From NCBI GenBank assembly GCA_934630555.1, contig CAKTXB010000033.1:1-13158 (forward strand): a DNA stretch of 13,158 nucleotides, written 5' to 3'. The position numbers and the translations under genes are program-made. This DNA comes from an uncultured Oscillospiraceae bacterium (lineage in GTDB: Bacteria > Bacillota > Clostridia > Oscillospirales > Oscillospiraceae). The first letter of the stretch is position 1, and each line of letters starts with the position of its first letter. Below the pieces are notes generated by a model, which was not told where the DNA came from, ran no database searches, and worked only from the letters and a program-made list of their open reading frames with translations. Positions 1 through 13,158 of the stretch are shown here, piece after piece.

Positions 1-261
1 GTTGATAATGATCCCGATGGCAAAGTATTTTCCGGGGCGCAGCTCCAACAGTGTGGATGGGCGGCCGGGCTTTACCGGCGCTGCGCCGCTGCATTCGCGT
101 ACAAGCTGCTCCTCGAGCAGCTCATTGACGATGCTGGTGACAGCGGAGCGGGCCAGACCGGTTTGCTGGGCGAGCTGCGCGCGGGAGGATGGCCGCTGGT
201 GCAGCTGCTTGAGCAGGAGCGCACGGTTTGCCACACGCAGCGATCGGTTGGTATTGGACAT
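1..261 (-). CDS. ROK-family transcriptional repressor, N-terminal part (runs off left edge)
   Basis: Eighty-seven codons are visible on the minus strand from an ATG at 261; the gene continues beyond base 1. Residues about 10-55 form a winged helix-turn-helix of the MarR-like kind found at the N-terminus of ROK repressors (RAQLAQQTGLARSAVTSIVN as the helix-turn-helix core). It is followed by the typical wing and junction GRPSTLLEL and the start of the sugar-sensing domain (YFAIGIIIN). A GGGGA ribosome site lies 7 bases before the ATG, with a matching promoter further upstream. The gene is transcribed divergently from the sugar importer operon, which is the usual place for a local regulator. 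Family knowledge says such proteins bind operators as dimers and release on binding a sugar. The inducer and the sensing domain cannot be seen here. Confidence 0.85.
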   Translation of the reverse strand, partial: MSNTNRSLRVANRALLLKQLHQRPSSRAQLAQQTGLARSAVTSIVNELLEEQLVRECSGAAPVKPGRPSTLLELRPGKYFAIGIIIN

Positions 262-299
262 AGAACGATCCCCATCTTTCCATGTGTTCTGATAGCTGC

Positions 300-328
300 A
301 TCATAGCAGAGAATTTTAGAAATGTAAA
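300..328 (-). promoter_or_regulatory. Promoter of the left ROK repressor
   Basis: On the minus strand there is a -35 box TTTACA (plus-strand 323-328), a 17-base spacer and a -10 box TATGAT (plus-strand 300-305), each matching the sigma-A consensus at 5 of 6 bases. Transcription would start near 293, giving a leader of about 32 bases before the ATG at 261. The spacer contains plus-strand TTTTAGAAA (314-322), which is close to a motif near the other two promoters of the locus. Confidence 0.65.
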
Positions 329-535
329 GATAATAATTCATGATAAGAACAAAAAATGCGAAAATATCCTGACGGGCGGGAAGATGATTTCACATATAAA
401 ACCCAAATACAATACGGCAGATATGCGAAATGACGGATAATCGAGAAAGTACGGAAATAAATTGTTGAATATAATCAAATTACACATGGCGCCACTGTGC
501 ACATTCCTGTTTTTGAGAAACTTTTAAAAAACAAT

Positions 536-564
536 TTGACAATAGTAGAATAAGAACGTAAAAT
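536..564 (+). promoter_or_regulatory. Main operon promoter
   Basis: A perfect -35 box TTGACA (536-541), a 17-base spacer and a -10 box TAAAAT (559-564, 5 of 6) make a strong sigma-A-type promoter about 100 bases ahead of the importer ATPase gene. Start of transcription is expected near 571. It should drive at least the three importer genes and probably the enzyme genes too, because no other convincing plus-strand promoter was found until 11841. Confidence 0.75.
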
Positions 565-570
565 GGCGAT

Positions 571-669
571 AGACAGACCCCCGGCACATTGGTGCGGCAG
601 GGAACAGGCCGGACTGCCGGCGTGGGAACGACCGGCGGCGGCACACGAGCAGGAGGAAAGGAGCGGGAA
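571..669 (+). other. 5' leader of the importer operon
   Basis: This roughly 99-base leader is G+C-rich. It can form small hairpins: GCAC/GTGC at 584-587 and 592-595, and GCCGG/CCGGC at 608-612 and 617-621. The same frame as the ATPase is open from a TTG at 589, but there is no ribosome site before it. AAAGGAG sits 6 bases before the ATG at 670, so the leader is judged non-coding. No known riboswitch was recognised. Confidence 0.5.
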
Positions 670-2196
670 ATGGAGAGTCAATATATCTTGGAGATCCGGC
701 ACGTCCGCAAAGAGTTTCCCGGCGTGGTTGCGCTGGATGACGTATCGCTTTATTTGAAGCGCGGCGAAATTCACGCGCTGGTGGGTGAGAACGGTGCCGG
801 AAAATCAACGATCATGAAGATCCTGGCGGGTATTTACACAATGGATTCCGGCGAGATCCTGTTTGACGGAAAGCCGTTTGCGGCGCGCCGTCCGGTGGAG
901 GCGCTGGAAAAGGGCATTTCCATGGTGCATCAGGAGCTGGATCTGATCCCGGATATGACCGTGGAGGCCAACGTGTTCGCCGGGCGTGAAAAAGGCCGCG
1001 GACTTGTGGCCGACAAGCACTGGATGACGCAGCGCACGCGGGAACTGATGGAGGAACTCGGCATTGATATTGACCCCAAGACCAAGGTCGGCAAGCTGAG
1101 TACGGCACAGCAGCAGATGGTCGCCATCACACGGGCCATTGCGTTTAACGCGGAGGTCATCATTATGGATGAGCCGACGTCAGCCATTACGGACCGCGAG
1201 GTGGAAAAGCTGTTTGAGATCATCCGGCGGCTGAAGGAACAGAACAAGGCCATCGTTTACATCTCCCATAAGATGGACGAGATCTACGCGCTGACGGACC
1301 GTATCACCGTGCTGCGCGACGGCCAGCTGATCGGCAGTGTGGACACCAAGGACGTGACGCCGGAAAAGCTCATCAATATGATGGTAGGCCGCGACCTTTC
1401 GGACGTGTACGTGAAAAATGCGCCGAAGGCGACGGACTTTGACGAGAACGAAGTGCTTTTGAAGGTGGAAAACCTCAGCCGCGAGGGGGAATTCCGCGAT
1501 GTGAGCTTTGAAGTAAAGCGCGGCGAGATCCTGGGGTTCTACGGCCTGATGGGCGCGGGGCGCACAGAGATCATGGAAACGGTATTTGGTCTGCGTAAGG
1601 CGGATGACGGCGCGGTGACGCTGAATGGCAGGAAGATCCATACCATCCGCGGAGCGATCAACAATGGCATGGCATTTATAACGGAGGACCGGAAGATCTT
1701 TGGACTGAACCTGATCGCATCGGTGAAGGATAACATTACCATTGCCTATCTGCGCCAGGTGCTGAAGGGCGGCTTCCTTATGAACTTTAAAAAGGAAAAA
1801 AAGACGGCAGATTCGCTGATCGAAAAGCTGCGCATCAAATGCGCCAGCCGCGATGTACTGGCCGGAACGCTTTCCGGCGGCAACCAGCAGAAGATCGTCA
1901 TTGCCAAGTGGTTCATGGGCGACCCGGACGTGCTGATCATGGACGAGCCGACGCGCGGCATTGACATTGGTGCAAAGGCGGAAATTTACAAGCTGATGGA
2001 TACACTGGCCAAGAGCGGCAAGAGCATCATCATGATCTCATCGGAAACACCGGAGCTGCTCGGCATGAGCGACCGCATCATTGTGATGCACGAGGGTGAT
2101 ATGACCGGCGAGTTTACCCGCGATGAAGCGGACCAGGATACGCTGATGGCGTGTGCCATCGGCGAAGTCAGCGCGATGGGCGAAAGGAGAGCATAA
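670..2196 (+). CDS. Sugar ABC importer, double ATPase subunit (RbsA/MglA family)
   Basis: This 508-residue cytoplasmic ATPase powers uptake through the neighbouring permease. Both nucleotide-binding halves are present. The first has Walker A GENGAGKST (39-47), Q-loop Gln88, signature LSTAQQQ (143-149), Walker B ending DEPT (163-170) and switch His200. The second has the degenerate Walker A GLMGAGRTE (292-300) usual in this family, signature LSGGNQQK (401-408) and Walker B ending DEPT (421-428). Length matches RbsA/MglA (about 500). Start: ATG at 670 with AAAGGAG 6 bases upstream; the upstream TTG at 589 has no ribosome site. It is first in the operon, with 4 bases to the permease gene. The substrate cannot be read from an ATPase; the class imports ribose, galactose, xylose, allose and some polyols. 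Confidence 0.95.
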   Translation: MESQYILEIRHVRKEFPGVVALDDVSLYLKRGEIHALVGENGAGKSTIMKILAGIYTMDSGEILFDGKPFAARRPVEALEKGISMVHQELDLIPDMTVEANVFAGREKGRGLVADKHWMTQRTRELMEELGIDIDPKTKVGKLSTAQQQMVAITRAIAFNAEVIIMDEPTSAITDREVEKLFEIIRRLKEQNKAIVYISHKMDEIYALTDRITVLRDGQLIGSVDTKDVTPEKLINMMVGRDLSDVYVKNAPKATDFDENEVLLKVENLSREGEFRDVSFEVKRGEILGFYGLMGAGRTEIMETVFGLRKADDGAVTLNGRKIHTIRGAINNGMAFITEDRKIFGLNLIASVKDNITIAYLRQVLKGGFLMNFKKEKKTADSLIEKLRIKCASRDVLAGTLSGGNQQKIVIAKWFMGDPDVLIMDEPTRGIDIGAKAEIYKLMDTLAKSGKSIIMISSETPELLGMSDRIIVMHEGDMTGEFTRDEADQDTLMACAIGEVSAMGERRA

Positions 2197-2200
2197 CGAG

Positions 2201-3172
2201 ATGAGCAAGGATAATAACCGCATGAAAACACTCCAGCAGCGCCGCCGCGTCGGCACGCTGATCGGCAAATACGGCGTATATTTTGCGCTGGTTGTAATGT
2301 TTGTGGCAATGAGCTTTGCCTCACCGACATTTTTGACGGTGACGAACCTGTTCAACATCCTGAAGCAGAATGCGGTCATCGGCATTATATCCGTTGGCAT
2401 GACGTTTGTCATCGTGACGGGCGGCATCGACCTTTCCGTGGGCGCGATCGTGGCCATGGCAGCGTGTTTTGGCACGAGCCTTGCCCAGAAGGGCACGGCG
2501 ACCCCGACGGCCGTGGCATATTTGGTGGGCGTTTTGGCCGGCATCGCGTGCGGCGCGTTCAGCGGCTTGTTTATTGCGCACTTCCATCTGCCGGCCTTCA
2601 TTGCAACGCTTGCGACACAGACCATTGTGCGCGGCATTGTGTACGTGTTCACCGATGGCCGCCCCATTACAGGCGTGACGGATGCGTACAAGGTCATTGG
2701 CCGGAGCTCGTGGGGATTTCTTCCCATTGCAGTCGTTATTTACGCGGTATTTATTGCAGCGGGAATTTTCTTCCTGAGCTACACGAAGTTCGGACGACAC
2801 GTGTATGCCATCGGCGGCAACAAAAAAGCGGCAATCGTATCCGGCGTGAATGCAAAGCTGACGGAGTTTATGGTGTACGTCATTTCGGGTTTTACGGCGG
2901 CGTGTGCCGGTGTGCTGCTCTCCAGCCGTATCCAGACCGGCCAGCCGGCTGGCGGCCAGGGCTATGAGCTGGATGCTATCACGGCTACGGTCATTGGCGG
3001 CTCCAGCCTTTCGGGCGGACGCGGCACGGTGTTTGGCTGCTTCGTCGGTATGCTGGTCATCGGTATCATGACAAACGGCCTCGACCTGCTGAATGTTTCG
3101 TCCTACTATCAGCAGATCATCAAGGGCGCGATCATCCTGCTGGCTGTGCTGGCCGACCGGAAGAACGCGTGA
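2201..3172 (+). CDS. Sugar ABC importer permease (RbsC family)
   Basis: This 323-residue membrane protein is the channel subunit of the importer; two copies would pair with the ATPase. It begins with a short basic cytoplasmic tail (MSKDNNRMKTLQQRRR), then has a series of hydrophobic segments (for example about 24-42, 57-73, 104-124, 174-193, 224-240, 280-292, 305-317). Family hallmarks are GGIDLSVG (74-81), the cytoplasmic loop IGGNKKAAIVSGVN (204-217) that contacts the ATPase, and GGSSLSGGRGT (266-276). ATG 2201 lies 4 bases after the ATPase stop, and its AAAGGAG ribosome site lies inside the end of the ATPase gene, so the two are translationally linked. A later Met at codon 8 is a less likely start. 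Two stop codons (TGA TAA) end the gene. Confidence 0.95.
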   Translation: MSKDNNRMKTLQQRRRVGTLIGKYGVYFALVVMFVAMSFASPTFLTVTNLFNILKQNAVIGIISVGMTFVIVTGGIDLSVGAIVAMAACFGTSLAQKGTATPTAVAYLVGVLAGIACGAFSGLFIAHFHLPAFIATLATQTIVRGIVYVFTDGRPITGVTDAYKVIGRSSWGFLPIAVVIYAVFIAAGIFFLSYTKFGRHVYAIGGNKKAAIVSGVNAKLTEFMVYVISGFTAACAGVLLSSRIQTGQPAGGQGYELDAITATVIGGSSLSGGRGTVFGCFVGMLVIGIMTNGLDLLNVSSYYQQIIKGAIILLAVLADRKNA

Positions 3173-3177
3173 TAAGT

Positions 3178-3215
3178 TCCATTTCGCATCCACCTGAGAA
3201 TCCATTTTTGCATCC
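3178..3215 (+). repeat. Imperfect tandem direct repeat downstream of the permease
   Basis: TCCATTTCGCATCC (3178-3191) recurs as TCCATTTTTGCATCC (3201-3215), 23 bases from start to start. A more diverged copy, TCCATTTATCGATCC, lies after the binding-protein gene at 4369-4383. These are visible in the sequence; their role is unknown. They sit in the 119-base gap between permease and binding protein, where no convincing promoter was found. Confidence 0.4.
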
Positions 3216-3291
3216 CTTGTTCACGGTAATAACCGCTGGAGGGCGGATATTATAAGCGCAAGCACAAAAACAAATTTTAGGAGGAGAAAAA

Positions 3292-4296
3292 ATGAAAAAA
3301 CTGATTGCTCTTATGTTGGCGCTCGTGATGTGCCTGGGCCTGATGGCCTGCGCATCTTCGGGCAGCAAGGAAACCCCTGCCGCGACCACGGAAAAGCCCG
3401 CCGCGACAACTGAGGCCCCGGCTGACAAAGAACAGACGGCCGAACCGTCCGGCGAGAAGAAGCTCGTCATTGCCTGGACTGACGGCAATCTGGCCAACGA
3501 AAACAATGCCATGTGCACCGACGTTGCCAAGGCGTATGCCGCAGAAAAGGGTATTGACTTCATTCTGCTGGACGGCGAAGGCAATGGCGAAAACCAGGTT
3601 GCACACTGCGAAACCCTGATCGCACAGGGCGTTGACTGCGTTATCATGCAGGCATATGACGCCGCGGCCTGCGAAGCGGGCGTTGAGATGTGCATTGAGG
3701 CCGGCGTGCCGGTCCTGTGCGCAAAGACCATGCTGGAGGACAACACCCTCTGCCCGTTTGTCGGCCAGAACGACACAGACGCCGGTGAGATGGAAATGCA
3801 GTGGATCGCCGACCAGCTGGGCGGCAAGGGCAACATCGTTATCCTGGAAGGCCCGACCGGCAACTCGGCGGCTATTCAGAGAAACGACGGTATCCACAAT
3901 GTTTTGGAAAACTACCCCGACATCAAAGTCCTTTATACGCAGACCGGCAACTGGAACCGTGAAGAAGGCATGGCTCTGATGGAAACCTGGCTGCAGATGG
4001 GCGAGCAGATCGACGCGGTCGTGGCACACAACGATGAAATGGCGCTGGGCGCTTATGACGCCATCGCAGACGCCGGCAAGGCGGGCGAGATCCTGGTCAT
4101 CGGCATTGACGCCATTCAGGCAGCCAAGGAATCTGTTGCAGCCGGCGAGATGAATGTCACCATCCTGCAGGATGTGGAGACCATTGCCAAGACGGCTATT
4201 GACACGGCCGTCAAGCTGGCAAAAGGCGAGACCGTGGAGCAGTTCACGTATGTTGCGCCGGTGCTGCTGACGAAGGAAACTGTTGGCGACTATTGA
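3292..4296 (+). CDS. Sugar-binding lipoprotein of the ABC importer (RbsB-like, periplasmic-binding type I fold)
   Basis: This 334-residue extracytoplasmic binding protein is tethered to the membrane by lipid. The signal peptide has a basic start (MKK), a hydrophobic core and a lipobox LMAC with the lipidated Cys at residue 20. A flexible Ala/Thr/Pro/Glu linker (about 21-56) follows, including the near-repeat AATTEKPAATTEAP. The ligand-binding lobes begin at KLVIAW (57) and contain HNDEMALGA (246-254) and VIGIDAI (269-275), typical of the ribose/galactose-binding family. ATG 3292 has AGGAGG 7 bases upstream. It lies 119 bases after the permease, a longer gap than elsewhere in the importer, which may allow separate mRNA processing and high expression of this subunit. 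The ligand cannot be assigned; the locus points to a polyol or ketose. Confidence 0.93.
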   Translation: MKKLIALMLALVMCLGLMACASSGSKETPAATTEKPAATTEAPADKEQTAEPSGEKKLVIAWTDGNLANENNAMCTDVAKAYAAEKGIDFILLDGEGNGENQVAHCETLIAQGVDCVIMQAYDAAACEAGVEMCIEAGVPVLCAKTMLEDNTLCPFVGQNDTDAGEMEMQWIADQLGGKGNIVILEGPTGNSAAIQRNDGIHNVLENYPDIKVLYTQTGNWNREEGMALMETWLQMGEQIDAVVAHNDEMALGAYDAIADAGKAGEILVIGIDAIQAAKESVAAGEMNVTILQDVETIAKTAIDTAVKLAKGETVEQFTYVAPVLLTKETVGDY

Positions 4297-4403
4297 TAGC
4301 CACGCTGAGGTAAGCGGTGGATACCATTTCAAAATTCGCGATCTGGAAGTACAGCTTGAGCTGAAAGATCCATTTATCGATCCGCATTCATGAATTACCC
4401 CCC

Positions 4404-4455
4404 GGCGGGCCGGAACGGTGTGCCGCAAGGCCGGATCCCTCCGTGCCGGCCCGCC
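4404..4455 (+). other. Large G+C-rich stem-loop between importer and enzyme genes
   Basis: GGCGGGCCGG (4404-4413) pairs perfectly with CCGGCCCGCC (4446-4455). After one A-G mismatch, ACGG (4415-4418) pairs with CCGT (4441-4444), giving an almost continuous 15-step stem with a 22-base loop. No run of T follows, so it is not a standard terminator. Family experience suggests such structures protect the upstream mRNA from 3' exonucleases or thin out downstream transcription. The rest of the 200-base gap (4297-4496) holds a smaller hairpin at 4300-4320 and no gene. Confidence 0.7.
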
Positions 4456-4496
4456 CCTCAATTCAAAGCACTGCAAGCGTTTAAGGAGGTTTGCGT

Positions 4497-5543
4497 ATGA
4501 AAACCATGAAAGCCCTGGTTTATGACAAGTCCGGACGGCAGTATTCCAGCATCCGGCAGATCCCGTATCCCACCTGCGGTGACAACGATGTGATCGTGAA
4601 GGTCATGTCGGCCTCCATCTGCAAGGGCGTGGAGCATGACCATGACCGTGGCGTCGGTACAGATCTTGCAAAGTACCCGGTCGTGCCTGGCCACGAATTT
4701 GCTGGCTACATCTATGAAATTGGTAAAAACGTCACGGATCTCAAGGTTGGCGACCGCGTGACTTGTGATAATACGGAGTATTGCGGCTCCTGCTATTACT
4801 GCAAGAAGGAGGAATCCAACTATTGCCCGACGTTTGGCTCGCTGGGTCACAACATCAATGGCGGTTTTGCCGAATATGTGCGTGTGAACAAGGATAAGGC
4901 CTTCCCCATTCCTGACAGCGTTTCGTTTAATGCCGCTGCGTTGTGTGAGCCGATCGCGTGCTGCCTGCACGCCGTGGATCGCACCAATATCCGCTATGGC
5001 GACACGGTGGTCGTGTTCGGCGCAGGCTCCATGGGCATGATCCTGGCACAGCTGTTCCATCACTCCAATGCACGGGAAGTTATCCTCATTGCCAGCACGA
5101 AGAGCAAGCTGGATCTGGCGGAAAAGATGGGGATCCGTACCATTGTGATGGACCGCAACGACTATTCCAAGCACGAAAAGGAACTGCTGGCGCGCCATCC
5201 GCTGGGCGTGAATGTGATCGTGGACGCTACGGGCAGCCCGAAGGTTTGCGAAAACGGTATGAAGCTGCTGAAAAAGGGCGGTATGCTGCTGCAGTACGCA
5301 CTGGTGCACAGCGATGAAAAAATGACGCTGGACCCGCGCCTGATGTTCAACAACGAACTGACGTTTACAACGTCGTTCTGTCAGTCGCACAACTTCGGCC
5401 GTGCGGTCGAATGCCTGGAGAGCGGCATTGTGAACGGCGATGCGCTGGTGACGGGCGAGTATCCGCTGGACGAGTTCTATGCGGGCCTGGATGAAAATGT
5501 GAATGACCGCAATTCGCTGAAGGTCATCATCCATCCGAACTAA
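4497..5543 (+). CDS. Zinc-dependent medium-chain alcohol/polyol dehydrogenase
   Basis: This 348-residue cytoplasmic MDR oxidoreductase interconverts an alcohol and a carbonyl. Catalytic zinc ligands are Cys42, His66-Glu67 in PGHEFAG and Glu151 in CEP. The structural zinc lobe is complete, with Cys96, 99, 102 and 110. The nucleotide-binding turn GAGSMG lies at 175-180. At the end of the next strand (about residue 200) there is Ser (LIASTK) instead of the Asp that selects NAD, so NADP may be preferred (inference). ATG 4497 has a perfect AAGGAGGT 6 bases upstream; a TTG at 4491 in the same frame is too close to that site. It is the first enzyme gene after the importer. The substrate is unknown; relatives act on polyols, polyol phosphates or butanediol. 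It is clearly distinct from the second zinc dehydrogenase at 8748. Confidence 0.88.
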   Translation: MKTMKALVYDKSGRQYSSIRQIPYPTCGDNDVIVKVMSASICKGVEHDHDRGVGTDLAKYPVVPGHEFAGYIYEIGKNVTDLKVGDRVTCDNTEYCGSCYYCKKEESNYCPTFGSLGHNINGGFAEYVRVNKDKAFPIPDSVSFNAAALCEPIACCLHAVDRTNIRYGDTVVVFGAGSMGMILAQLFHHSNAREVILIASTKSKLDLAEKMGIRTIVMDRNDYSKHEKELLARHPLGVNVIVDATGSPKVCENGMKLLKKGGMLLQYALVHSDEKMTLDPRLMFNNELTFTTSFCQSHNFGRAVECLESGIVNGDALVTGEYPLDEFYAGLDENVNDRNSLKVIIHPN

Positions 5544-5551
5544 GAATAAAA

Positions 5552-5570
5552 CAACTCTGATCCAGAGTTG
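5552..5570 (+). other. Small hairpin preceding the terminator
   Basis: CAACTCTG (5552-5559) and CAGAGTTG (5563-5570) form a perfect 8-bp stem with a 3-base loop directly after the dehydrogenase stop codon. No T-run follows. The segment between it and the terminator could pair CCGC (5577-5580) with GCGG (5586-5589), which would use the first bases of the terminator stem. An alternative structure is possible but unproven. Confidence 0.5.
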
Positions 5571-5586
5571 CTGAAGCCGCGAACAG

Positions 5587-5626
5587 CGGGAGAACGCGTT
5601 CACGGAGCTGCGTTCTCCCGTTTTTT
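5587..5626 (+). terminator. Rho-independent terminator inside the operon
   Basis: CGGGAGAACGC (5587-5597) pairs perfectly with GCGTTCTCCCG (5610-5620), an 11-bp stem with a 12-base loop, immediately followed by six T (5621-5626). All the sequence hallmarks of an intrinsic terminator are present. It ends only 16 bases before the ATG of the next gene, leaving no space for a new promoter. The downstream genes therefore depend on read-through or antitermination, or on a promoter not recognised here. Confidence 0.85.
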
Positions 5627-5642
5627 CGGAAGAGAGTACATT

Positions 5643-6788
5643 ATGGAGAGAAACGAACCACTTTGCCTGGCGCTTGGAATGGGCGCGATCGGCAAGGCTG
5701 TGTCGGGCTACGCCATGCGGCGAGCGGGTGTGCGCGTCATTTATGCGGACATTGCGCAGACGCTGATCGACACCGTGAACCGTGACGGCGGTTACTGGCT
5801 TGGCACAGCGGATATTTACACAAAAACACTGACAAAGGAATTTATCACGGGCGTAAGCGCGGTGCATACTGACGCGCCGGAGGCGCAGCAGGCGGCAATA
5901 GAGGCGGACTACATGATCTCTGCCGTTGGGCCGAAGGGCTTTCGGGCGCTGCTGCCCAAAGCGGCAGACTGGCTGCGCGCACGGGCGGCAGTGACGGATA
6001 AGCCCCTTTACTATATGGTCTTTGAAAATGACCATGACGCGATGGAGCTTTTGCGCGGTGCGGTGCGAGAAGCGCTGGGCGATATTCCATCGTGGCTGCA
6101 TCTGACAAAGTGCTCCATTGAGCGGATGACAAAGGTCGTGGAGCTTCCGGACACCGGCACGACGGCGATCGGCGAAACATTTTTCCCCATTATTGCCGAC
6201 GGTGCAGCCATGACCGGAAGCGGCATTGCCGGGCGTGCGGATGTCATTGAGCTGGCAGATGATGTGGAAAAATATTATTACCGCAAGCTGCTGACGAACA
6301 ATCTGGGTCATGCAGTGCTGGGCTATGCGGGGATCCCAAAGGGATATACGAATACGCTGGAAGCAATGGCAGATGCGGAGATCTACACGCTGCTGCGCCG
6401 GGCACTGGAAGAATCAGGGCGGGCCATCTGCGCCAAATGGGGCTTTACGGCTGCGCATATGCAAAAGCACATTGATACGCTGATGCTGCGCTACGCGAAC
6501 CCCGGGCTTGTGGACGCGCTGCCGCGGCTGGCGCGCGACCCGCTGCGCAAGCTCTCGCCGGACGACCGGATCGTACTGCCGATACGGCTGTGCTACACAT
6601 ATGGCATTCCGGCGGAGGGGCTGCTGGAAGTGCTGCATCGGGCCATCTGCTTTGATGCACCGGATGTAGAGGGCAGCGATACGCTGCGGGCGCTGCACGC
6701 AAGCATTGGTGAAGCAGGTATTTTGAAAACAGTCTGCAAAGCAGACGGAGCATTTTTGCAGGATGCGCTGCATCTTGCTGCAACTTGA
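5643..6788 (+). CDS. Polyol(-phosphate) dehydrogenase, mannitol-1-phosphate 5-dehydrogenase-like (long-chain family)
   Basis: This 381-residue protein has the length of MtlD (about 382). The N-terminal Rossmann domain has GMGAIG (12-17), with Asp36 at the end of the second strand, pointing to NAD. The family catalytic pattern K-x4-N-x2-H is present as Lys215, Asn220 and His223 within KLLTNNLGH; KCSIERM (156-162) precedes it. The family is zinc-independent and oxidises hexitols or hexitol phosphates, for example mannitol 1-phosphate or glucitol 6-phosphate to fructose 6-phosphate. ATG 5643 was chosen because translation from further upstream would start within the terminator; its ribosome site (GGAAGAG, 5628-5634) is weaker than others here. 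The gene lies 19 bases before the transaldolase. Whether the substrate is phosphorylated is inferred only from the SorE-like neighbour. Confidence 0.85.
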   Translation: MERNEPLCLALGMGAIGKAVSGYAMRRAGVRVIYADIAQTLIDTVNRDGGYWLGTADIYTKTLTKEFITGVSAVHTDAPEAQQAAIEADYMISAVGPKGFRALLPKAADWLRARAAVTDKPLYYMVFENDHDAMELLRGAVREALGDIPSWLHLTKCSIERMTKVVELPDTGTTAIGETFFPIIADGAAMTGSGIAGRADVIELADDVEKYYYRKLLTNNLGHAVLGYAGIPKGYTNTLEAMADAEIYTLLRRALEESGRAICAKWGFTAAHMQKHIDTLMLRYANPGLVDALPRLARDPLRKLSPDDRIVLPIRLCYTYGIPAEGLLEVLHRAICFDAPDVEGSDTLRALHASIGEAGILKTVCKADGAFLQDALHLAAT

Positions 6789-6807
6789 ATTTTTGAGGAG
6801 TTTTTTC

Positions 6808-7458
6808 ATGGACTACAGAATTTTCCTGGATACCGCCAACATTCACGAAATCGAAGACGCGCTTTCCACGGGCATTGTGGACGGCATTGCGACAAACCCG
6901 AACAAGATGTTTCAGGTGGGCCGCAAGTATGAAGATGTCATTCGTGACATCCGCTCCATTTTTGACGGCCCGGTGGCCGTGGAGGCTATTTCGACCAAGG
7001 CAGAGGACATTGTAGAGGAAGCGCAGCGCTTGTCCGGAATGGCCAAGAACATGGTCATCAAGATCCCCGGCAACAAGGAAGGCATCAAGGCCATCAGCAA
7101 GCTCGTGCCTATGGGGATCGCAACGAACTGCACGCTGCTGTTTAACCCGGCACAGGCGCTGGCGGCCGGCTTGGCCGGGTCGCCGTTCATCAGCCCGTTT
7201 ATCGGCCGTGTGAATGCGTGCGGCATGGATGGCATGAAGCTGTTTTCCGAAGTGCGGAAAATGTATGATTTCTATAATATCAAGTCTGTGGTGATCGCGG
7301 CGTCCATCAAGAATGTATATGACGCGGTGCAGGCCGTCTGTGCGGGTGCGGATTCTCTGGCGCTGACGTATGAGGTATTCAACCAGCTGTTCTCGCATCC
7401 GCTGACAGAGCAGGGCATTGAAAAGTTTACGGCGGATTACCGCGCGATCAACGGCTGA
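6808..7458 (+). CDS. talC: Small transaldolase (TalC/fructose-6-phosphate aldolase family)
   Basis: This 216-residue class I aldolase-fold protein is of the short decameric type. The Schiff-base lysine is Lys85 in VIKIPG. Asp8 (FLDTA), Asn30 (ATNPN) and Thr109 complete the conserved centre, and Arg134, Ser166 and Lys168 match the phosphate-binding positions. At the two positions that separate the chemistries, this protein has Glu59 and Phe131, as in transaldolases. E. coli fructose-6-phosphate aldolase has Gln59 and Tyr131. A transfer reaction (fructose 6-phosphate/sedoheptulose 7-phosphate) is therefore more likely than simple cleavage; automatic annotation may call it fsa. ATG 6808 has GAGGAG 7 bases upstream. 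It probably passes phosphorylated ketose from this locus into the pentose phosphate pool. The loop NKMFQVGRKY after TNP is unusual and might reflect a special substrate. Confidence 0.9.
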   Translation: MDYRIFLDTANIHEIEDALSTGIVDGIATNPNKMFQVGRKYEDVIRDIRSIFDGPVAVEAISTKAEDIVEEAQRLSGMAKNMVIKIPGNKEGIKAISKLVPMGIATNCTLLFNPAQALAAGLAGSPFISPFIGRVNACGMDGMKLFSEVRKMYDFYNIKSVVIAASIKNVYDAVQAVCAGADSLALTYEVFNQLFSHPLTEQGIEKFTADYRAING

Positions 7459-7468
7459 GGGCGCAGGT

Positions 7469-8734
7469 ATGAAGACAAAAGCAGTCCGTCTGTATGGCGC
7501 GAACGACGTGCGGCTGGAGGAATTTGAACTGCCTGAGATCACGGAGGGCGAAATTCTGGCGCGCATTGTGACGGATTCACTTTGTATGTCGTCATATAAG
7601 GCAGCATATATGGGCGCGAGCCACAACCGCGTGCCAGATGACGTGGCGGAGCATCCCATTATATTGGGCCATGAGTTCTGCGGTGAGATCGTGAAGGTCG
7701 GGGCGCGGTGGCAGGCACAGTTCCATCCGGGCGAACGGTTTACCATCCAGCCGGCGCTCAACTACAAAGGACGCATTGACGCACCGGGCTATTCGTTCCC
7801 CTATATTGGCGGCTGCGCAACGTATATCGTGATCCCGGAGATGGTGATGGAGGTCGGGTGCCTGCTGCCATATCATGGCGACGCATTCTTCTATGGTTCG
7901 CTGGCTGAGCCGATGAGCTGTGTGATCGGGTCATTTATGGAGTTCTATCACTCCAAAGCCGGTATTCATGCACATGAGATGGGGATCTTGCCGGATGGCA
8001 ATTTGATCGTGCTGGCGGGCGCCGGGCCGATGGGGTTTGGCGCAGTGGATTTCATCCTTCACGCGGAGCGGCGGCCGGGGCGGCTGGTCGTGACCGACAT
8101 CGACGCAGCGCGGCTGGAGCGCATGGCGGCCCTTATTACGGTGGAGGAAGCAGCGCGCAACGGCGTGGAGCTGCACTATGTGAACACAGCGGTCATTGCA
8201 GATGCGCAGGCGTATCTGATGGCGCTGACGGACGGACACGGTTATGACGACGTGATGGTCATGGCGCCGGTGCGCAGTGTGTGCGAGCAGGCAGACCGCC
8301 TGCTGGCGTTCAACGGCTGCCTGAGCTTCTTCTCCGGGCCGAAGGATACACAGTTCTCGTCGATGGTGAACTTCTATAACATCCACTACCGCGCCACACA
8401 TTATCTTGGCACGGTGGGCGGCAATACGGACGATATGCGGCTGGCGCTTTCCATGTGTGCGGAGGGAAAGATCGATCCTTCTGGCATGATCACGCATGTG
8501 GGAGGCTTGGACAGCGCGGCAGAGGCCACCCTGCATCTGCCTGAGATCCCGGGCGGGAAAAAGCTCATTTATACACAGGTCGCCATGCCGCTGACAGCGA
8601 TCAGCGATTTTGCGGCGCTGGGTAAGGACGACGCATTTTTTGCTGCGCTGGCCGAGATCACGGCACAGCACGGCGGCATTTGGTGCGCGGAAGCGGAGCA
8701 GTATCTGCTGGCGCACGCACCGAAGATCCAGTAA
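7469..8734 (+). CDS. sorE: SorE-like L-sorbose-1-phosphate reductase (zinc-binding MDR)
   Basis: This 421-residue MDR protein matches the SorE family along its whole length as remembered: RLYG near the N-terminus, VTDSLC, PIILGHEFCGEI, PGYSFPYIGG, GHGYDD, GGNTDDMR and the C-terminal GIW..EAE.YLLAHA. Catalytic zinc candidates are Cys39, His68-Glu69 and Glu147 (AEP). The four-Cys structural zinc lobe is absent, as expected for this branch. The nucleotide turn GAGPMG is at 184-189 and Asp210 (VVTD) favours NAD. Known SorE reduces L-sorbose 1-phosphate to D-glucitol 6-phosphate, next to a PTS transporter. Here no PTS is present, but an ABC importer and a sugar kinase are. ATG 7469 lies 10 bases after the transaldolase stop; its ribosome site is modest (GAGG, spacing 8). 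The exact sugar phosphate is not proven. Confidence 0.82.
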   Translation: MKTKAVRLYGANDVRLEEFELPEITEGEILARIVTDSLCMSSYKAAYMGASHNRVPDDVAEHPIILGHEFCGEIVKVGARWQAQFHPGERFTIQPALNYKGRIDAPGYSFPYIGGCATYIVIPEMVMEVGCLLPYHGDAFFYGSLAEPMSCVIGSFMEFYHSKAGIHAHEMGILPDGNLIVLAGAGPMGFGAVDFILHAERRPGRLVVTDIDAARLERMAALITVEEAARNGVELHYVNTAVIADAQAYLMALTDGHGYDDVMVMAPVRSVCEQADRLLAFNGCLSFFSGPKDTQFSSMVNFYNIHYRATHYLGTVGGNTDDMRLALSMCAEGKIDPSGMITHVGGLDSAAEATLHLPEIPGGKKLIYTQVAMPLTAISDFAALGKDDAFFAALAEITAQHGGIWCAEAEQYLLAHAPKIQ

Positions 8735-8747
8735 AGGAGAGACGATA

Positions 8748-9785
8748 ATGGTTAATAAAGCAGCGTATATGACAGACGTCAACACCATGTTTTTTAAAGA
8801 AGTGCCTATGCCGCAGCCAGGGCCGAAGGACGTGGTGGTCAAGGTGGAATACTGCGGTATCTGCGGCTCGGATGTACATTACTATAATAAGGGCCGTATT
8901 GGCGATTATGTTGTACAGGGCGAATTCGTTCTGGGCCACGAGGTAGCCGGCACAGTGACGGAACTTGGCAGTGAGGTGACGAGCCTGAAGGTCGGCGACC
9001 GCGTGGCATTGGAGCCGGGCATTACCTGCGGGCATTGCGAGCAGTGCAAGGAAGGCAAATACAATTTGTGCAAGGATGTCATCTTCTTTGCGACGCCGCC
9101 GGTACAGGGCGCGCTGCAAAACTTTGTGAAGCATCCGGCCGATATGTGCTTTAAGCTGCCGGAGAATGTTTCCACAAAGGAAGGCGCGCTTGTGGAGCCG
9201 CTGGCGGTGGGTCTGCATGCCTGCAAGCAGGGCGGCGTGGGCCTTGGCGACAGCGTGGTCATTCTGGGCGCCGGCTGCATCGGACTTGTGACGCTGCTGT
9301 CGGCAAAGGCCATGGGCGCATCCAATGTGATCGTGGTCGACCTGGTGGAAAAGCGGCTGGAATACGCCAAGAAGCTGGGCGCAAATCATGTTATCAATGC
9401 AAAAACAGAGGACGTGGAAACAAAGATCGCGGAGCTTCTGGGTGAACGCGGCGCGGATGTGGTGCTGGAAACGGCAGGGTCGCCAAAGACGATCTATCAG
9501 ACGCCGTTTTTTGCCAAGCGCGGCGGCACGGTGGTGCTGGTGGGGTTGGCAGTTGATTCGACGCTGCAATACAACTTCTCACAGGTGATGAACAAGGAAC
9601 TGACCATTAAGTCAGTATTTCGGTATCGCAACCTGTATCCGACGGCCATCAATGCCATTGCCGACGGCAGCATTGACGTTAAGCAGATCGTGACGCATGA
9701 GTTCAAGTTTGAGGACGCCAAGCTGGCGTTTGACACGGTGATCGCCGACGCGCAGAATGTAGTGAAGGGTGTAATTGCACTGTAA
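8748..9785 (+). CDS. Sorbitol/xylitol dehydrogenase-type zinc MDR
   Basis: This 345-residue NAD-dependent polyol 2-dehydrogenase-type enzyme has CGICGSDVHYYNKGRIGDYV (36-55) and FFATPPVQGAL (113-123), both hallmarks of sorbitol dehydrogenase and D-xylulose reductase. Catalytic zinc: Cys36, His64-Glu65 and Glu150 (VEP). Structural zinc lobe: Cys94, 97, 100 and 108. The cofactor turn GAGCIG is at 174-179, and Asp198 (VVD) selects NAD. It should convert a free hexitol or pentitol to a ketose, for example glucitol to fructose, iditol to sorbose, or xylitol to xylulose. ATG 8748 has AAAGGAG 8 bases upstream, and the stop codon of the SorE-like gene lies within this ribosome site, so the two are tightly coupled. 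It is the likely entry enzyme if the imported compound is a polyol. Confidence 0.92.
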   Translation: MVNKAAYMTDVNTMFFKEVPMPQPGPKDVVVKVEYCGICGSDVHYYNKGRIGDYVVQGEFVLGHEVAGTVTELGSEVTSLKVGDRVALEPGITCGHCEQCKEGKYNLCKDVIFFATPPVQGALQNFVKHPADMCFKLPENVSTKEGALVEPLAVGLHACKQGGVGLGDSVVILGAGCIGLVTLLSAKAMGASNVIVVDLVEKRLEYAKKLGANHVINAKTEDVETKIAELLGERGADVVLETAGSPKTIYQTPFFAKRGGTVVLVGLAVDSTLQYNFSQVMNKELTIKSVFRYRNLYPTAINAIADGSIDVKQIVTHEFKFEDAKLAFDTVIADAQNVVKGVIAL

Positions 9786-9820
9786 AGACACGGCGCGTCC
9801 GCATCCGGGCAGACTGCTGT

Positions 9821-9862
9821 AAAAAACGGGCGGGCAGGGTGTTTGCACTCTGCCCGCATTTT
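9821..9862 (+). terminator. Terminator-like stem-loop before the pyranase gene
   Basis: A run of six A (9821-9826) precedes a 12-step stem, GCGGGCAG (9830-9837) with CTGCCCGC (9850-9857) plus a G-T pair and GTG/CAC, around a TTTG loop. After one A, TTTT (9859-9862) follows. A second CGGGCAG at 9806-9812 could pair with the same 3' arm. The T-run is short, so termination is probably incomplete. The next start codon is only 17 bases away and uses AAAGGAG at 9865-9871. Confidence 0.6.
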
Positions 9863-9879
9863 GAAAAGGAGAGAAATTT

Positions 9880-10308
9880 ATGAAACGACAGGGTGTCATC
9901 AATCAGCCGCTGAGCAGCGCGCTGGCAGGGTTGGGGCATGGCGACTATTTTTTGCTGTGCGATGCGGGGTTTCCCATTCCCAAAAGTGTGGAGCGCATCG
10001 ACCTGGCATTGTGCTTTGGCGTGCCGTCCATGCAGCAGTGTCTGGAGGCGATCTTACGCGAGATCGTGGTGCAAAAGGTGACGTATGCCGCTGAAATGCC
10101 CGGACTGAACGCAGAAGGCGCAGCCTATATCCAGAGACTGTTCAAAAATCAGGAGGTCGTGCAGGTATCGCAGAGCGAGCTGGTACGACTGGCACAGGGG
10201 GCAAAGTTTATTGTGCGCAGCGGCGAGCTTGGGTGTTATTCCAACATCCTGCTGGAGGCAGCCTCTGGTGTGGAGCAGTTTAAGAAGGAACTCATCATTG
10301 ACCCGTAA
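9880..10308 (+). CDS. rbsD: RbsD/FucU-family sugar pyranase (mutarotase)
   Basis: This 142-residue protein matches RbsD (139 residues in E. coli) throughout. Catalytic His20 lies in LGHGD, CDAGFPIPKS is at 27-36, and the C-terminal sugar-binding segment RSGE is at 113-116 with Tyr120 and Asn122. RbsD converts the pyranose ring form of ribose to the furanose form that ribokinase uses; FucU does a similar job with fucose. The function here is therefore non-redox ring-form conversion in the cytoplasm, supplying the kinase encoded 25 bases downstream. AAAGGAG lies 8 bases before the ATG. In a locus rich in polyol dehydrogenases the real substrate may be a ketose instead of ribose; that is inference. 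Confidence 0.9.
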   Translation: MKRQGVINQPLSSALAGLGHGDYFLLCDAGFPIPKSVERIDLALCFGVPSMQQCLEAILREIVVQKVTYAAEMPGLNAEGAAYIQRLFKNQEVVQVSQSELVRLAQGAKFIVRSGELGCYSNILLEAASGVEQFKKELIIDP

Positions 10309-10333
10309 GGGCAGGCAGAGAAAAGGGGAAACT

Positions 10334-11467
10334 ATGGGCATCTTGGAAAAACCGATCGTTGTAGCGGGGCTGGTGTGCGTGGACATTACACCGCAGTTTG
10401 CGGCGGATGGCGGCTACAGCCTGCAATCGTGCCTGCAGCCGGGTAAGATCGTGCGAACGCATGGCGTGACCATCAGTGCCGGGGGCGTGGTGGCAAACAC
10501 GGGGCTTGCGCTGCGAAAACTGGGGGCGAAGGTCCACCTGATGTACATGGTGTCGGATGACCCCTTCGGCAAAATGGTGACGGAGCAGCTGGAGGCGGCG
10601 TGCGTACCGGCAACGCGGCGCGTGACATATGAATCGGCAACAAGTTATTCGGTCATTCTGGCCCTGCCGGGGAGCGACCGCATTATTTTGCATGACGTGG
10701 GGGCAAATGACATTTTGGACGACACGGACTTTGACTATGACGTCATTCAAAATGCGTGCATCTTTCACTTTGGCTATCCGCAAAGCATGCGGCAGTTTTA
10801 TTTGAACAAGGCTGAAAAACTGGTGCGGATGTATGAACGCGTACACAGTATGGGCGTTGCAACATCGTTGGACATGGCGATGGCTGATGCGGCGAGTGAA
10901 TGCGGCCGTGTGGACTGGGGCAGTGTTGTGAAAAGGGTGCTGCCATATGTGGATCTGTTTGAACCGAGCCTGGAAGAGATCTGCTGGGCGGTCGACCCGG
11001 AGCGGTATGCCGCGTGGAACGCGCAGGCTGTGGCGGAAGGGAAGTCTATTTTGCAGATCGTGCCGCAGGATTATGTACCGGAACTGGCTGAACGGCTGCT
11101 GCAATGGGGCGGCCGTGTGGTGCTCATTAAATGCGGAGAAAAGGGCATGTATCTGCGCACTGCGTCACAGGCGCGGCTGGACGATATTGGCGGCGGACTG
11201 GCAGAAAACCTGCGTGGTTGGGGCGACCAGGCTATTTGGATGCCATGTTTTCACGTGGATACGGTGCGCTCCGGAACAGGTGCGGGCGACACAAGCATTG
11301 CAGGGTTTTTATATGCGATCCAGCGGGGGTTCCCGGTGCGGCGGTGCGTGGAATTGGCTGCGGCCACAGGCGCGTGCTGTGTGACAGCGTACGATGCGCT
11401 GAGCGCGATCGAGCCGCTGGACGCCATCAATGCGAAAATCGAGGCAGGCTGGAAACACAGTGAATAA
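10334..11467 (+). CDS. PfkB-family sugar kinase, enlarged
   Basis: This 377-residue cytoplasmic ATP-dependent carbohydrate kinase has the N-terminal sugar-binding motif SAGGVVANTGLALRKLGAKV (48-67) and the C-terminal PfkB signature RSGTGAGDTSIAGF (312-325), where GAGD (316-319) forms the anion hole and Asp319 is the catalytic base. It is about 40-70 residues longer than ribokinase. Extra stretches appear around 219-245 and 276-302, so it is probably not a plain ribokinase or fructokinase. ATG 10334 has AAGGGG 5 bases upstream. Pairing with the pyranase mimics the RbsD-RbsK module. The phosphorylated sugar cannot be read off; the SorE-like neighbour suggests a ketose phosphorylated at C1. Codon use resembles the surrounding genes. 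Confidence 0.88.
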   Translation: MGILEKPIVVAGLVCVDITPQFAADGGYSLQSCLQPGKIVRTHGVTISAGGVVANTGLALRKLGAKVHLMYMVSDDPFGKMVTEQLEAACVPATRRVTYESATSYSVILALPGSDRIILHDVGANDILDDTDFDYDVIQNACIFHFGYPQSMRQFYLNKAEKLVRMYERVHSMGVATSLDMAMADAASECGRVDWGSVVKRVLPYVDLFEPSLEEICWAVDPERYAAWNAQAVAEGKSILQIVPQDYVPELAERLLQWGGRVVLIKCGEKGMYLRTASQARLDDIGGGLAENLRGWGDQAIWMPCFHVDTVRSGTGAGDTSIAGFLYAIQRGFPVRRCVELAAATGACCVTAYDALSAIEPLDAINAKIEAGWKHSE

Positions 11468-11482
11468 AGGGCGGTGCAGACG

Positions 11483-11863
11483 ATGGCGCCGGCACTTTTG
11501 CACGTCATTTTGCCCACGTCTGCGCCGCTCCTGCTGGTTTTGACGCTGGGGCTGGCAGCTTTGGACTTTTGGCTGCGGAAAACGGTACAGTTTGGCTGTT
11601 ACAGCTTGCCAATGGCGTTGGCGGAAGCAGAGGGAAGCCTTGCCGTACCGCGGATGACGATCCAGTTTTTTGCCGCCGCCGTTTCCGGCGATCGATCTAT
11701 GCCGCACAGAGCGCCAGAGCGCTGCGGCGGCCGGGGCGTGCTCAGCGGCGACGGTGGGCACGCTGGCGGCATTCTGCATCATCACGGCAGCGGCCTGAAG
11801 GGAACAGGTGGTGTTGTGGTGAGCATTTTAGTGAAACCGCTTGCATTTGAGAAATCAAACTGA
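11483..11863 (+). CDS. Hypothetical small protein or decayed gene, doubtful
   Basis: No gene is recognised between the kinase and the right repressor (11468-11905). The best open frame starts at ATG 11483, with AAAGGG overlapping the kinase stop, and reads 126 residues to 11863. Its first part has a hydrophobic stretch (LLLVLTLGLAALDFWL, about residues 16-31) and codon use like real genes. Its second part is odd (GGHAGGILHHHGSGLKG) and looks non-coding. A different frame, from about 11655 to the stop at 11806-11808, is open with G/C-rich third positions and another hydrophobic stretch (GTLAAFCIITAAA). This could be a frameshifted membrane-protein gene or chance. The repressor promoter overlaps its end. 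Confidence 0.25.
   Translation: MAPALLHVILPTSAPLLLVLTLGLAALDFWLRKTVQFGCYSLPMALAEAEGSLAVPRMTIQFFAAAVSGDRSMPHRAPERCGGRGVLSGDGGHAGGILHHHGSGLKGTGGVVVSILVKPLAFEKSN
11832..11846 (+). promoter_or_regulatory. Candidate cre site (CcpA catabolite control)
   Basis: TGAAACCGCTTGCAT, read on the minus strand, fits the broad cre consensus WTGNAANCGNWNNCW at every defined position; on the plus strand it fits TGWAANCGNTNWCA with one mismatch. It overlaps the -35 box of the right repressor promoter, a position where CcpA binding would block RNA polymerase. The match is seen in the sequence. Binding is inference, and the organism must encode CcpA. Confidence 0.6.
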
Positions 11864-11869
11864 TAAAAT
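11841..11869 (+). promoter_or_regulatory. Promoter of the right ROK repressor
   Basis: The -35 box TTGCAT (11841-11846), a 17-base spacer and the -10 box TAAAAT (11864-11869) are present, with TG one base before the -10 (11861-11862) giving an extended -10. The -10 box is identical to that of the main operon promoter. Transcription would start near 11876, about 30 bases before the ATG at 11906. Confidence 0.7.
11846..11859 (+). promoter_or_regulatory. Operator-like palindrome between -35 and -10
   Basis: TTTGAGAAATCAAA has perfect 5-base arms (TTTGA/TCAAA) around GAAA. It lies wholly in the promoter spacer except for one base of the -35 box, a classic repressor position that would suit autoregulation by the adjacent ROK protein. 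The 9-mer TTTGAGAAA recurs at 512-520 upstream of the main operon promoter. Confidence 0.5.
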
Positions 11870-11905
11870 AAAACCAAAAGTGGGAAAAGGCGAGAAAGGC
11901 AGACA

Positions 11906-13030
11906 ATGGGAACACCAAACATGGAACTAAAACGGATCAACCGCAACCGGATCTTTCGTTCTATTTTGCGAAAGGGAACGACCTCGAAAGCGGAGATCGC
12001 CTATGAACTACAGATCAGCCTTCCAACAGTGACGCAGAACATTGCGGCACTGAAAGCGGAAGGGCTGGTCGTGGAAAGCGGCGAGTACGAATCCACGGGC
12101 GGTCGCCGGGCAAAGATGCTTTCGTGCAGCGCGCGGGCGCGCGTGGCGGTGGGCATCAATGTGACCCGTAACCACATCAGCGCGGTGGTGATGGACTTGT
12201 TCGGTGGCCTGATCGACAGCGTGCGTGAGAGCTGGGATTGCATCGATACGCAGAGCACCATCCGTAAGATCCAGGAACTGACGGAACGAATGCTCATTGC
12301 CAATGCGATCGACGACCAGACGGTACTGGGCGTGGGGATCGCGCTGCCGGCCATTATCGATACGGATAATCTGACCGTGAAAACGGCGCTGGTCGTGCCG
12401 CTGCCGATGGATTTTTATCAGCAGCTGCGGACCTATATCCGCTTTCCATATGCACTTTTTAACGACGCAAACTGCGGCGGTTTTGCAGAGTTGTGGAGCC
12501 GGCGTCCGATGGAGCGGGATATTTTCTATTTCAGCCTCAGCGGCACGGTGGGCGGCGCGGCGGTCATCAACAACCAGATCTACACTGGCTGCGATTTTAC
12601 CGGCGGCGAGGTCGGGCATATGACGCTTGTGCCGAATGGCCGGAGGTGCTATTGCGGCAAGCGCGGATGTGTGGACTGCTATTGCAGCAGCAACCGCCTG
12701 GCGGAGCTTGCGCCGAATGGCGACCTGGCGGCGTTTTTTGCAGCGTATCAGCGCGGCGACGCGGCGGCGCAGCAGCGGATGGAGGAATATCTGGACTATT
12801 TGACCGTTGCCATCCACAATGTACGGATGCTGTTTGACTGCAATATTATTCTGGGCGGCTACGTAGGCAGCTACAGCCATCTGTTTTTGGATGCGCTGAA
12901 AAAGCGGCTGTTTGCGGCGGACACGTTTGGCCACGACGTCAGCTATGTGACAGGCTGCCATTACAACACAGAGGCGGCGGCTGTTGGCGCGGCGCTGATG
13001 TATACGAGCAAATTCATTGACACGATCTAA
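11906..13030 (+). CDS. ROK-family transcriptional repressor (NagC/Mlc/XylR type)
   Basis: This is a complete 374-residue regulator. The N-terminal winged helix-turn-helix spans about 10-60 (SKAEIAYELQISLPTVTQNI at 27-46), followed by GGRRAK. The sensing domain (from about 78) has the ROK features: NDAN (186-189), EVGH (235-238) and the zinc site His238-x9-Cys248-x-Cys250-x4-Cys255, with extra Cys258 and Cys260. The ATP-binding DxGxT loop is replaced by GINVTRN, so it should sense sugar without phosphorylating it. ATG 11906 has AAAGG 6 bases upstream; a second ATG at 11921 is possible. It has its own promoter with cre-like and palindromic sites, and a strong terminator follows. It probably controls this locus and itself; the effector is unknown. 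Confidence 0.93.
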   Translation: MGTPNMELKRINRNRIFRSILRKGTTSKAEIAYELQISLPTVTQNIAALKAEGLVVESGEYESTGGRRAKMLSCSARARVAVGINVTRNHISAVVMDLFGGLIDSVRESWDCIDTQSTIRKIQELTERMLIANAIDDQTVLGVGIALPAIIDTDNLTVKTALVVPLPMDFYQQLRTYIRFPYALFNDANCGGFAELWSRRPMERDIFYFSLSGTVGGAAVINNQIYTGCDFTGGEVGHMTLVPNGRRCYCGKRGCVDCYCSSNRLAELAPNGDLAAFFAAYQRGDAAAQQRMEEYLDYLTVAIHNVRMLFDCNIILGGYVGSYSHLFLDALKKRLFAADTFGHDVSYVTGCHYNTEAAAVGAALMYTSKFIDTI

Positions 13031-13040
13031 ACTGCGATAC

Positions 13041-13072
13041 AAAGCCCCCGGCCGATCGGCCGGGGGCTTTTT
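13041..13072. terminator. Strong palindromic, probably bidirectional terminator
   Basis: Bases 13041-13070 form a perfect 30-base palindrome: 13 pairs beginning AAAGCCCCCGGCC, with GATC as the loop. It is flanked by AAA on the left and TTTTT (13068-13072) on the right. It lies 10 bases after the repressor stop and would end transcription from the left; because of its symmetry it may also stop transcription arriving from the right. Confidence 0.92.
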
Positions 13073-13158
13073 CAGACCGTCAAAAGCCTCGCAGAGTTCG
13101 CGCCCGCAGGCGCGAAAAAAGTCCGGATCATTTTCGGCGGCGGCGTGTACGTCGCCGA
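13073..13158. other. Unassigned tail with an inverted repeat
   Basis: These 86 bases contain TTCGCGCC (13097-13104) and GGCGCGAA (13109-13116), an 8-bp stem with a 4-base loop. It is followed by A and not T, so it is not a plus-strand terminator. On the minus strand an open frame enters from the right edge and stops with TGA at 13074-13072, right beside the terminator. This could be the 3' end of a convergent gene, but a plus-strand frame (ending RIIFGGGVYVA) is also open with good codon use. Too short to decide. Confidence 0.3.

Follow-up and report, generated by a model that had tools for sequence, protein, structure and literature searches.

The window analysed here is a 13,158-nucleotide stretch of DNA from an uncultured Oscillospiraceae bacterium (CAKTXB010000033.1, positions 1 to 13,158; apparently the whole 13.2-kb contig, as a protein fully identical to its kinase is listed with a longest contig of 13158 bases). 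It carries ten genes on the forward strand (670-11467) which, after checking of open reading frame (ORF) starts and stops, form one operon-like series. With moderate confidence, we predict that this series is an operon for the breakdown of a hexitol and/or its corresponding ketohexose that works without a phosphotransferase system (PTS), via a PfkB-family kinase, a SorE-like reductase and an MtlD-like dehydrogenase. The basis for this prediction is gene content and gene order, the fact that no PTS was detected in the window, the association of the SorE-like and MtlD-like clades, and conserved residues; the substrates and reactions of the route as a whole are predicted. An earlier sequence-only reading had proposed a PTS-independent version of the sorbose/polyol pathway. 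It holds in part, namely for the SorE/MtlD unit and a phosphorylated ketose, but is not supported for sorbose as the sugar.

In the proposed route, whose first steps are read from the protein families, a CUT2-type ATP-binding cassette (ABC) importer would bring in the unphosphorylated substrate, and one or both of two Zn-dependent dehydrogenases would convert a hexitol to a ketohexose. An RbsD-family pyranase would speed the pyranose-furanose exchange and thereby supply the kinase, which would form the ketose 1-phosphate that is made by PTS uptake in the classical route—a step suggested by the aldolase pairing of the kinase's relatives. The SorE-like enzyme would reduce the ketose 1-phosphate to a hexitol phosphate, and the MtlD-like enzyme would reoxidise it to a ketose 6-phosphate. 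The net effect of this pair would be a redox-neutral shift of the phosphate from the 1 end to the 6 end; L-sorbose would end as fructose 6-phosphate. As the weakest step, a transaldolase would link fructose 6-phosphate to the pentose phosphate pathway.

The SorE-like enzyme and the MtlD-like enzyme apparently belong together, in line with the pairing that the sequence-only reading had noticed. Among SorE proteins with at least 78% identity to that of the window, 4 of 11 lie on contigs sized exactly as the contig of an MtlD entry, versus 0 of 109 at 66% identity or less (Fisher p 4e-5), where equal size, compared for the longest contig per entry, suggests a shared contig only indirectly. One contig size, 21954, is common to SorE, MtlD and PfkB relatives. 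The MtlD-like enzyme belongs to a rare group, with only 27 entries at E ≤ 0.001 (7996 candidates scored; database of 5.8 billion), including the window's own cluster as first entry (98%); 16 of the 27 make up a close group of 57-98% identity. It exceeds the Pfam cut-offs for Mannitol_dh (35.2 bits vs 27) and Mannitol_dh_C (86.1 vs 30.7). Both the catalytic K-x4-N-x2-H motif and an R-x3-R-x6-R triad, the latter placed in the window by alignment and spacing, are kept in the window, in E. coli MtlD and in all 27 entries. According to PMC6623548, the triad forms the phosphate pocket and is conserved in mannitol-1-phosphate dehydrogenases (M1PDHs), but not in mannitol 2-dehydrogenases. The substrate of the MtlD-like enzyme is therefore likely to be phosphorylated. 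More distant MtlD relatives of about 30% identity are found on plasmids among the matches listed (6 of 29).

Within the operon, the genes for the MtlD-like enzyme, the transaldolase, the SorE-like enzyme and dehydrogenase 2 are consecutive, 10-19 bp apart, and the kinase gene is on the same strand. This layout, together with the common contig size, speaks against a composite operon for several polyols without a single linear route, in which one hexitol would be turned into fructose phosphate by a dehydrogenase and the kinase, and SorE and MtlD would process phosphorylated hexitols of other origin. Such an arrangement appears improbable, although it would account for the two separate Zn-dehydrogenases and for the existence of PTS-linked SorE relatives. 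It would also suit a related locus, L001, in which the dehydrogenase, RbsD, kinase and an aldolase occur without SorE or MtlD in view and whose genome has SorE-like genes elsewhere; the L001 contig, however, ends right before its dehydrogenase, so that upstream genes are possible there.

The SorE-like protein, whose similarity to SorE the sequence-only reading had noted, resembles SorE over its full length: 49-50% identity to the annotated SorE of Klebsiella, Serratia and Citrobacter plasmids, with 99-100% of the query aligned. Identity to E. coli YggP-type proteins is slightly higher (51%); the representative used (L082) shares 97% identity with K-12 YggP across the 319 residues compared, and the K-12 yggP gene adjoins the PTS genes cmtA and cmtB. 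In 63 of 63 aligned SorE-like sequences C39, H68, E69, K364 and K365 are kept, the first three being presumably Zn ligands by analogy with the dehydrogenase superfamily. Including these five, 33 polar positions are conserved in at least 97% of the 63 sequences; all 33 are present in Klebsiella SorE and E. coli YggP, and 32 in a Lactiplantibacillus protein that is annotated only as "zinc-binding dehydrogenase" and adjoins a Man-family PTS and a short-chain dehydrogenase/reductase (SDR) gene. In a tree of these 63 rows, rooted at the midpoint only, Klebsiella SorE and the Lactiplantibacillus relative pair on long branches (100/100), apart from the other 61. YggP groups with 13 relatives having PTS genes at their loci (100/98), and the window protein with P0001-P0012, P0017 and P0087 (98/93). 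The window protein thus appears as a member of a broad SorE-like family, its orthology with annotated SorE being a candidate relationship only. L-sorbose, to which the sequence-only reading had pointed, is not supported as the substrate and would be one candidate among several; the annotated Klebsiella enzyme is distant in the tree.

That no PTS gene is visible was confirmed within the window: eight PTS or PTS-regulator reference proteins (four Man-family sor enzyme II parts, one EIICB, one EIIA, one HPr, one PRD regulator) gave zero tblastn matches at E ≤ 0.01, and Pfam scans of the window proteins found no PTS domain; this negative covers the present stretch only, and genes farther off are possible. 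Nor was an SDR domain of the SorD type found among the ten operon proteins scanned in Pfam, and the MtlD-like enzyme may replace SorD.

How SorE-like genes are embedded elsewhere was read from 36 loci in two samples. L001 belongs to genome G001, in whose family a SorE-like match at E ≤ 1e-100 occurs in 16 of 150 genomes at 18 places, 16 of which were read and two partial matches left out. PTS parts are present at 13 of these 16 loci (EIICB at 11, EIIA at 9, HPr at 5), and a SorD-like SDR occurs at the three PTS-free ones (L137, L138, L151) and at no other of the 16. In the class of a second genome, G300 (presumably Clostridia), 64 of 391 sampled genomes have a match at E ≤ 1e-165, the best reaching 64% identity. 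Here 20 of 64 places were read, all among the 30 best, with neighbour families assigned from one representative each; the PTS references had zero matches at all 20, other PTS types (e.g., the glucitol family) lying outside the probes. SorD-like SDRs occur at 12 of the 20, and the one SDR tested is above the sorbitol-6-phosphate dehydrogenase cut-off (370 vs 307). Taken together, 23 of 36 SorE-like loci lack any probed PTS part, and 15 of these 23 genes have a SorD-like dehydrogenase nearby. Hence, PTS independence alone is not special, which tempers the "PTS-independent version" of the sequence-only reading even though its window is free of detected PTS genes, and the name L-sorbose 1-phosphate reductase, carried by at least one SorE-like relative, may mislead. 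An MtlD-like gene was matched at none of the 36 loci; in the window, the dehydrogenase partner of the SorE-like gene seems to be MtlD-like instead of SorD-like.

Several recurrent neighbourhoods were seen among these loci. E1, E2 or E3 parts of a pyruvate-dehydrogenase-type complex occur at 11 to 13 of the 20 loci from the class of G300; in L183, L184, L187-L189, L193, L195, L198-L200 and L202, the SorE-like gene is accompanied by this complex (fused E1 of ~823 amino acids (aa), E2, E3) together with a SorD-like SDR and a DeoR-type regulator, without any PTS type probed. In L190, L192, L194 and L196, the SorE-like gene directly adjoins a rhamnulokinase-like FGGY kinase (the single copy scanned, from L192, scores 481.8 bits against a cut-off of 527.95), and such neighbours hint at phosphoketose substrates besides sorbose 1-phosphate. 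In the PTS-carrying loci L140-L143, L145, L147, L148 and L150, the adjoining gene encodes a 310-aa PfkB protein, the L143 copy being above the 1-phosphofructokinase cut-off (318.5 vs 292). Finally, a protein of 390-435 aa recurs near PTS-free SorE/SDR pairs (L137 9074-10252, L138 5778-6959, L198 9392-10690), with similarity to the PHP domain in L198 (32.2 vs cut-off 26.4), under the cut-off in L138 (22.6) and none seen in L137.

At 25 of 39 loci with relatives of the kinase, a class II aldolase lies no more than 600 bp away, which points to a phosphorylated ketose as the kinase product. A contig scan with the kinase covers 80 of 478 relatives, so that closer ones may exist. This backs the phosphorylated ketose implied by the earlier suggestion that the kinase could make a sugar 1-phosphate, the reaction itself being inferred. 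In structure comparison, all 50 rows listed are ribokinase-type folds, with no substrate singled out. Among 38 pattern matches, no kinase relative was found on a viral contig. Since 2-ketopentoses cannot form pyranoses, a ketohexose would suit the pyranase better than a ketopentose, which bears on the pyranase argument of the sequence-only reading.

A counterpart of this part of the operon is L001 (CAJTAK010000027.1, Clostridia bacterium), where a dehydrogenase (79% identity), RbsD (71%), a PfkB kinase (52%), a class II aldolase and a ROK protein (44%) follow one another; dehydrogenase 1, RbsD, PfkB and ROK have the same order in the window. Since L001 has an aldolase after this module, whereas the window has SorE and MtlD, the two could represent interchangeable fates of one ketose 1-phosphate in a self-contained, PTS-free ketohexose route, a view we advance tentatively. 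The interval between kinase and ROK in the window (11468-11905, 438 bp), the position of the L001 aldolase, contains small ORFs without Pfam match. A decayed aldolase there was rejected: none of 26 class II aldolases matched it among the 20 best hits listed, and the best such match anywhere in the window (E 0.059) lies outside this interval.

The search for the same gene set in other genomes, as the sequence-only reading had suggested, returned this partial module but not the operon. The kinase at E ≤ 1e-50 was found in 33 of 299 genomes of the G001 family, with only G001 itself above 50% identity, and at E ≤ 1e-105 in 0 of 394 sampled genomes from the G300 order. For SorE (E ≤ 1e-188 to 1e-190), the counts are 0 of 250, 0 of 1 and 0 of 51 sampled genomes, and for the MtlD-like gene 0 of 6. 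Being drawn from samples that lack a known positive, these zero counts say nothing about the operon's presence elsewhere.

Several findings weigh against the hexitol/ketohexose route. The MtlD-like enzyme is under every matched NCBIfam M1PDH cut-off (best 165.1 bits vs 356), and the window's SorE-like protein sits in the large group away from the long-branched Klebsiella SorE. By structure, the binding protein model is nearest to 4yo7, with ribose-binding proteins just behind; they match the protein nearly as well as its presumed polyol binders do. The presumed ligands of the latter are xylitol (4rs3), L-sorbitol (5hko), D-threitol (4rsm) and myo-inositol (4yo7). In PMC10935332, 4RS3 is named among the sources of ribitol and xylitol coordinates. 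In alignments with TalB and solved transaldolase chains, the transaldolase-type protein keeps the Schiff-base Lys, the Glu and the Phe of TalB, Glu and Phe standing at Gln59 and Tyr131 of fructose-6-phosphate aldolase (FSA; E. coli FsaA numbering); assignment as FSA, whose cut-off is also missed (229.5 vs 245.95), was rejected. Such an enzyme would keep a pentose-phosphate reading alive.

That reading would make the series a pentose/pentitol operon, with importer, pyranase and kinase for a ribose-like sugar, dehydrogenases acting on pentitols, SorE and MtlD on pentitol phosphates, and the transaldolase working within the pentose phosphate pathway. Beyond its transaldolase-type active site and the ribose-binding proteins, it can draw on an RbsD above the D-ribose pyranase cut-off, on importer parts that score best with Rbs models, albeit under their cut-offs, and on the ribokinase folds among the kinase's nearest. 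Dehydrogenase 2 (nearest PDB match alcohol dehydrogenase 5vm2, then sorbitol, ketose-reductase, xylitol and arabinitol dehydrogenases) also resembles xylitol and L-arabinitol dehydrogenases. In L022 and L024, a kinase relative adjoins a D-lyxose isomerase-type gene and CUT2 ABC genes, in L024 also a class II aldolase, which looks like a D-xylulose 1-phosphate type route. We nevertheless regard a pentose/pentitol operon as unlikely, since the kinase is far under the ribokinase cut-off (60.8 bits vs 299.65), since the aldolase pairing of its relatives has no counterpart in a ribose 5-phosphate pathway, which needs no aldolase, and since the Arg triad of MtlD and the annotated SorE activity belong to hexitol phosphates.

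A variant of the inositol/inosose pathway, with an IolC-like kinase and IolM-like dehydrogenases, is suggested by the best NCBIfam matches of the kinase (IolC), dehydrogenase 1 and the SorE-like protein (both IolM), as well as by 4yo7. We consider it very improbable: the scores are far under their cut-offs (70.7 bits vs 300 for IolC; 182 and 80 vs 450 for IolM), the ten operon proteins include no hydrolase, isomerase, dehydratase or Gfo/Idh-type Pfam family of the inositol pathway, and the MtlD-like enzyme, RbsD and transaldolase are not known to have a place in that pathway.

The predicted hexitol/ketohexose operon is laid out in Table 1. Its ten genes have strong family support in Pfam and NCBIfam scans, by which chance or misannotation of the set was ruled out. 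The ABC importer, MtlD-like, SorE-like, sorbitol-type dehydrogenase, RbsD and PfkB genes of the sequence-only reading are present where it had placed them on the forward strand; not named there were the transaldolase, the ROK protein and the divergent regulator. The latter (87-aa ORF, open at its 3' end) slightly exceeds the cut-offs for HTH_24 (22.3 bits vs 21.9) and HTH_IclR (22.4 vs 22), remaining HTH families being under theirs. Promoter-like consensus matches across the window number 13, versus 7.8 expected in shuffles; searches of the window for tRNAs and for Rfam families at gathering score gave no match.

Table 1. Features of the window with position, strand and supporting detail.
Feature	Position	Strand	Detail
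Divergent winged-helix transcriptional regulator, start only	1..261	-	truncated by contig end; left operon boundary
Promoter-like site TTGACA-17-TAAAAT, 11/12	536..564	+	upstream of ABC genes; consensus match only
ABC importer ATPase, CUT2 type (RbsA/AraG/MglA-like)	670..2196	+	ABC_tran; RbsA 561.8 bits, under cut-off 745
ABC importer permease, CUT2 type (RbsC-like)	2201..3172	+	BPD_transp_2; 277 bits vs cut-off 398
Solute-binding protein	3292..4296	+	closest solved relatives by sequence 4rs3, 5hko, 4yo7, 4rsm, then ribose-binding protein 2ioy
Zn-dependent medium-chain dehydrogenase 1, possibly polyol dehydrogenase	4497..5543	+	79% identity to L001 copy
MtlD-like polyol-phosphate dehydrogenase, rare subfamily	5643..6788	+	K215/N220/H223; Arg triad R298/R302/R309
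Transaldolase-type enzyme, TAL/FSA family	6808..7458	+	Glu and Phe where FSA has Gln and Tyr
SorE/YggP-like reductase, probably of phosphoketoses	7469..8734	+	presumed Zn ligands C39, H68, E69
Zn-dependent sorbitol/xylitol/arabinitol-type dehydrogenase 2	8748..9785	+	family scan, PDB matches
RbsD-family pyranase	9880..10308	+	D-ribose pyranase 114 bits, above cut-off 93; 71% identity to L001 copy
PfkB-family kinase	10334..11467	+	relatives often paired with class II aldolases
ROK-family transcriptional regulator	11906..13030	+	44% identity to L001 copy

Genes of the SorE family are common in the G300 class, and the operon offers a testable case in which the phosphorylated SorE substrate could come from a kinase of the same operon. 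If true, rare ketoses and hexitols, which include some sweeteners, would have one more PTS-free route. A kinase-fed SorE/MtlD pair was not found described in the open-licence literature, subscription journals being outside the search.

Among the nearest known systems is the classical sor pathway of E. coli and Klebsiella, the SorE step of which is covered in PMC12817954. Like the window, it combines a SorE-family reductase with a hexitol-phosphate dehydrogenase, and the expected intermediates are the same: ketose 1-phosphate, hexitol 6-phosphate and ketose 6-phosphate. It differs in having a Man-family PTS, where the window has an ABC importer, a pyranase and a PfkB kinase, and in having the SDR SorD and an annotated sugar-binding regulator, where the window has an MtlD-type enzyme and a ROK protein. 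L001, in turn, has a class II aldolase after its kinase and, up to its contig end, no MtlD, transaldolase or SorE in view. Among non-PTS systems, the archaeal mannitol/sorbitol pathway of Haloarcula hispanica, with its pfkB-superfamily ketohexokinase, resembles the proposed route in ABC uptake of hexitols, two dehydrogenases and a ribokinase/pfkB kinase that yields a ketose 1-phosphate, but uses a CUT1 importer and a second kinase from fructose 1-phosphate to fructose 1,6-bisphosphate; its description includes no SorE or MtlD step, whereas the window has both genes (PMC11519228). PTS-free polyol uptake is likewise shared with the mannitol/sorbitol systems of Pseudomonas fluorescens and Sinorhizobium, for which the descriptions consulted contain no reductase/oxidase pair on phosphorylated polyols (PMC11519228, PMC10433430); in P. 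fluorescens, the polyol is oxidised to fructose, from which a fructokinase gives fructose 6-phosphate directly (PMC11519228). While non-PTS polyol routes are thus already known, the new element is the SorE/MtlD pair fed by a kinase and combined with an ABC importer.

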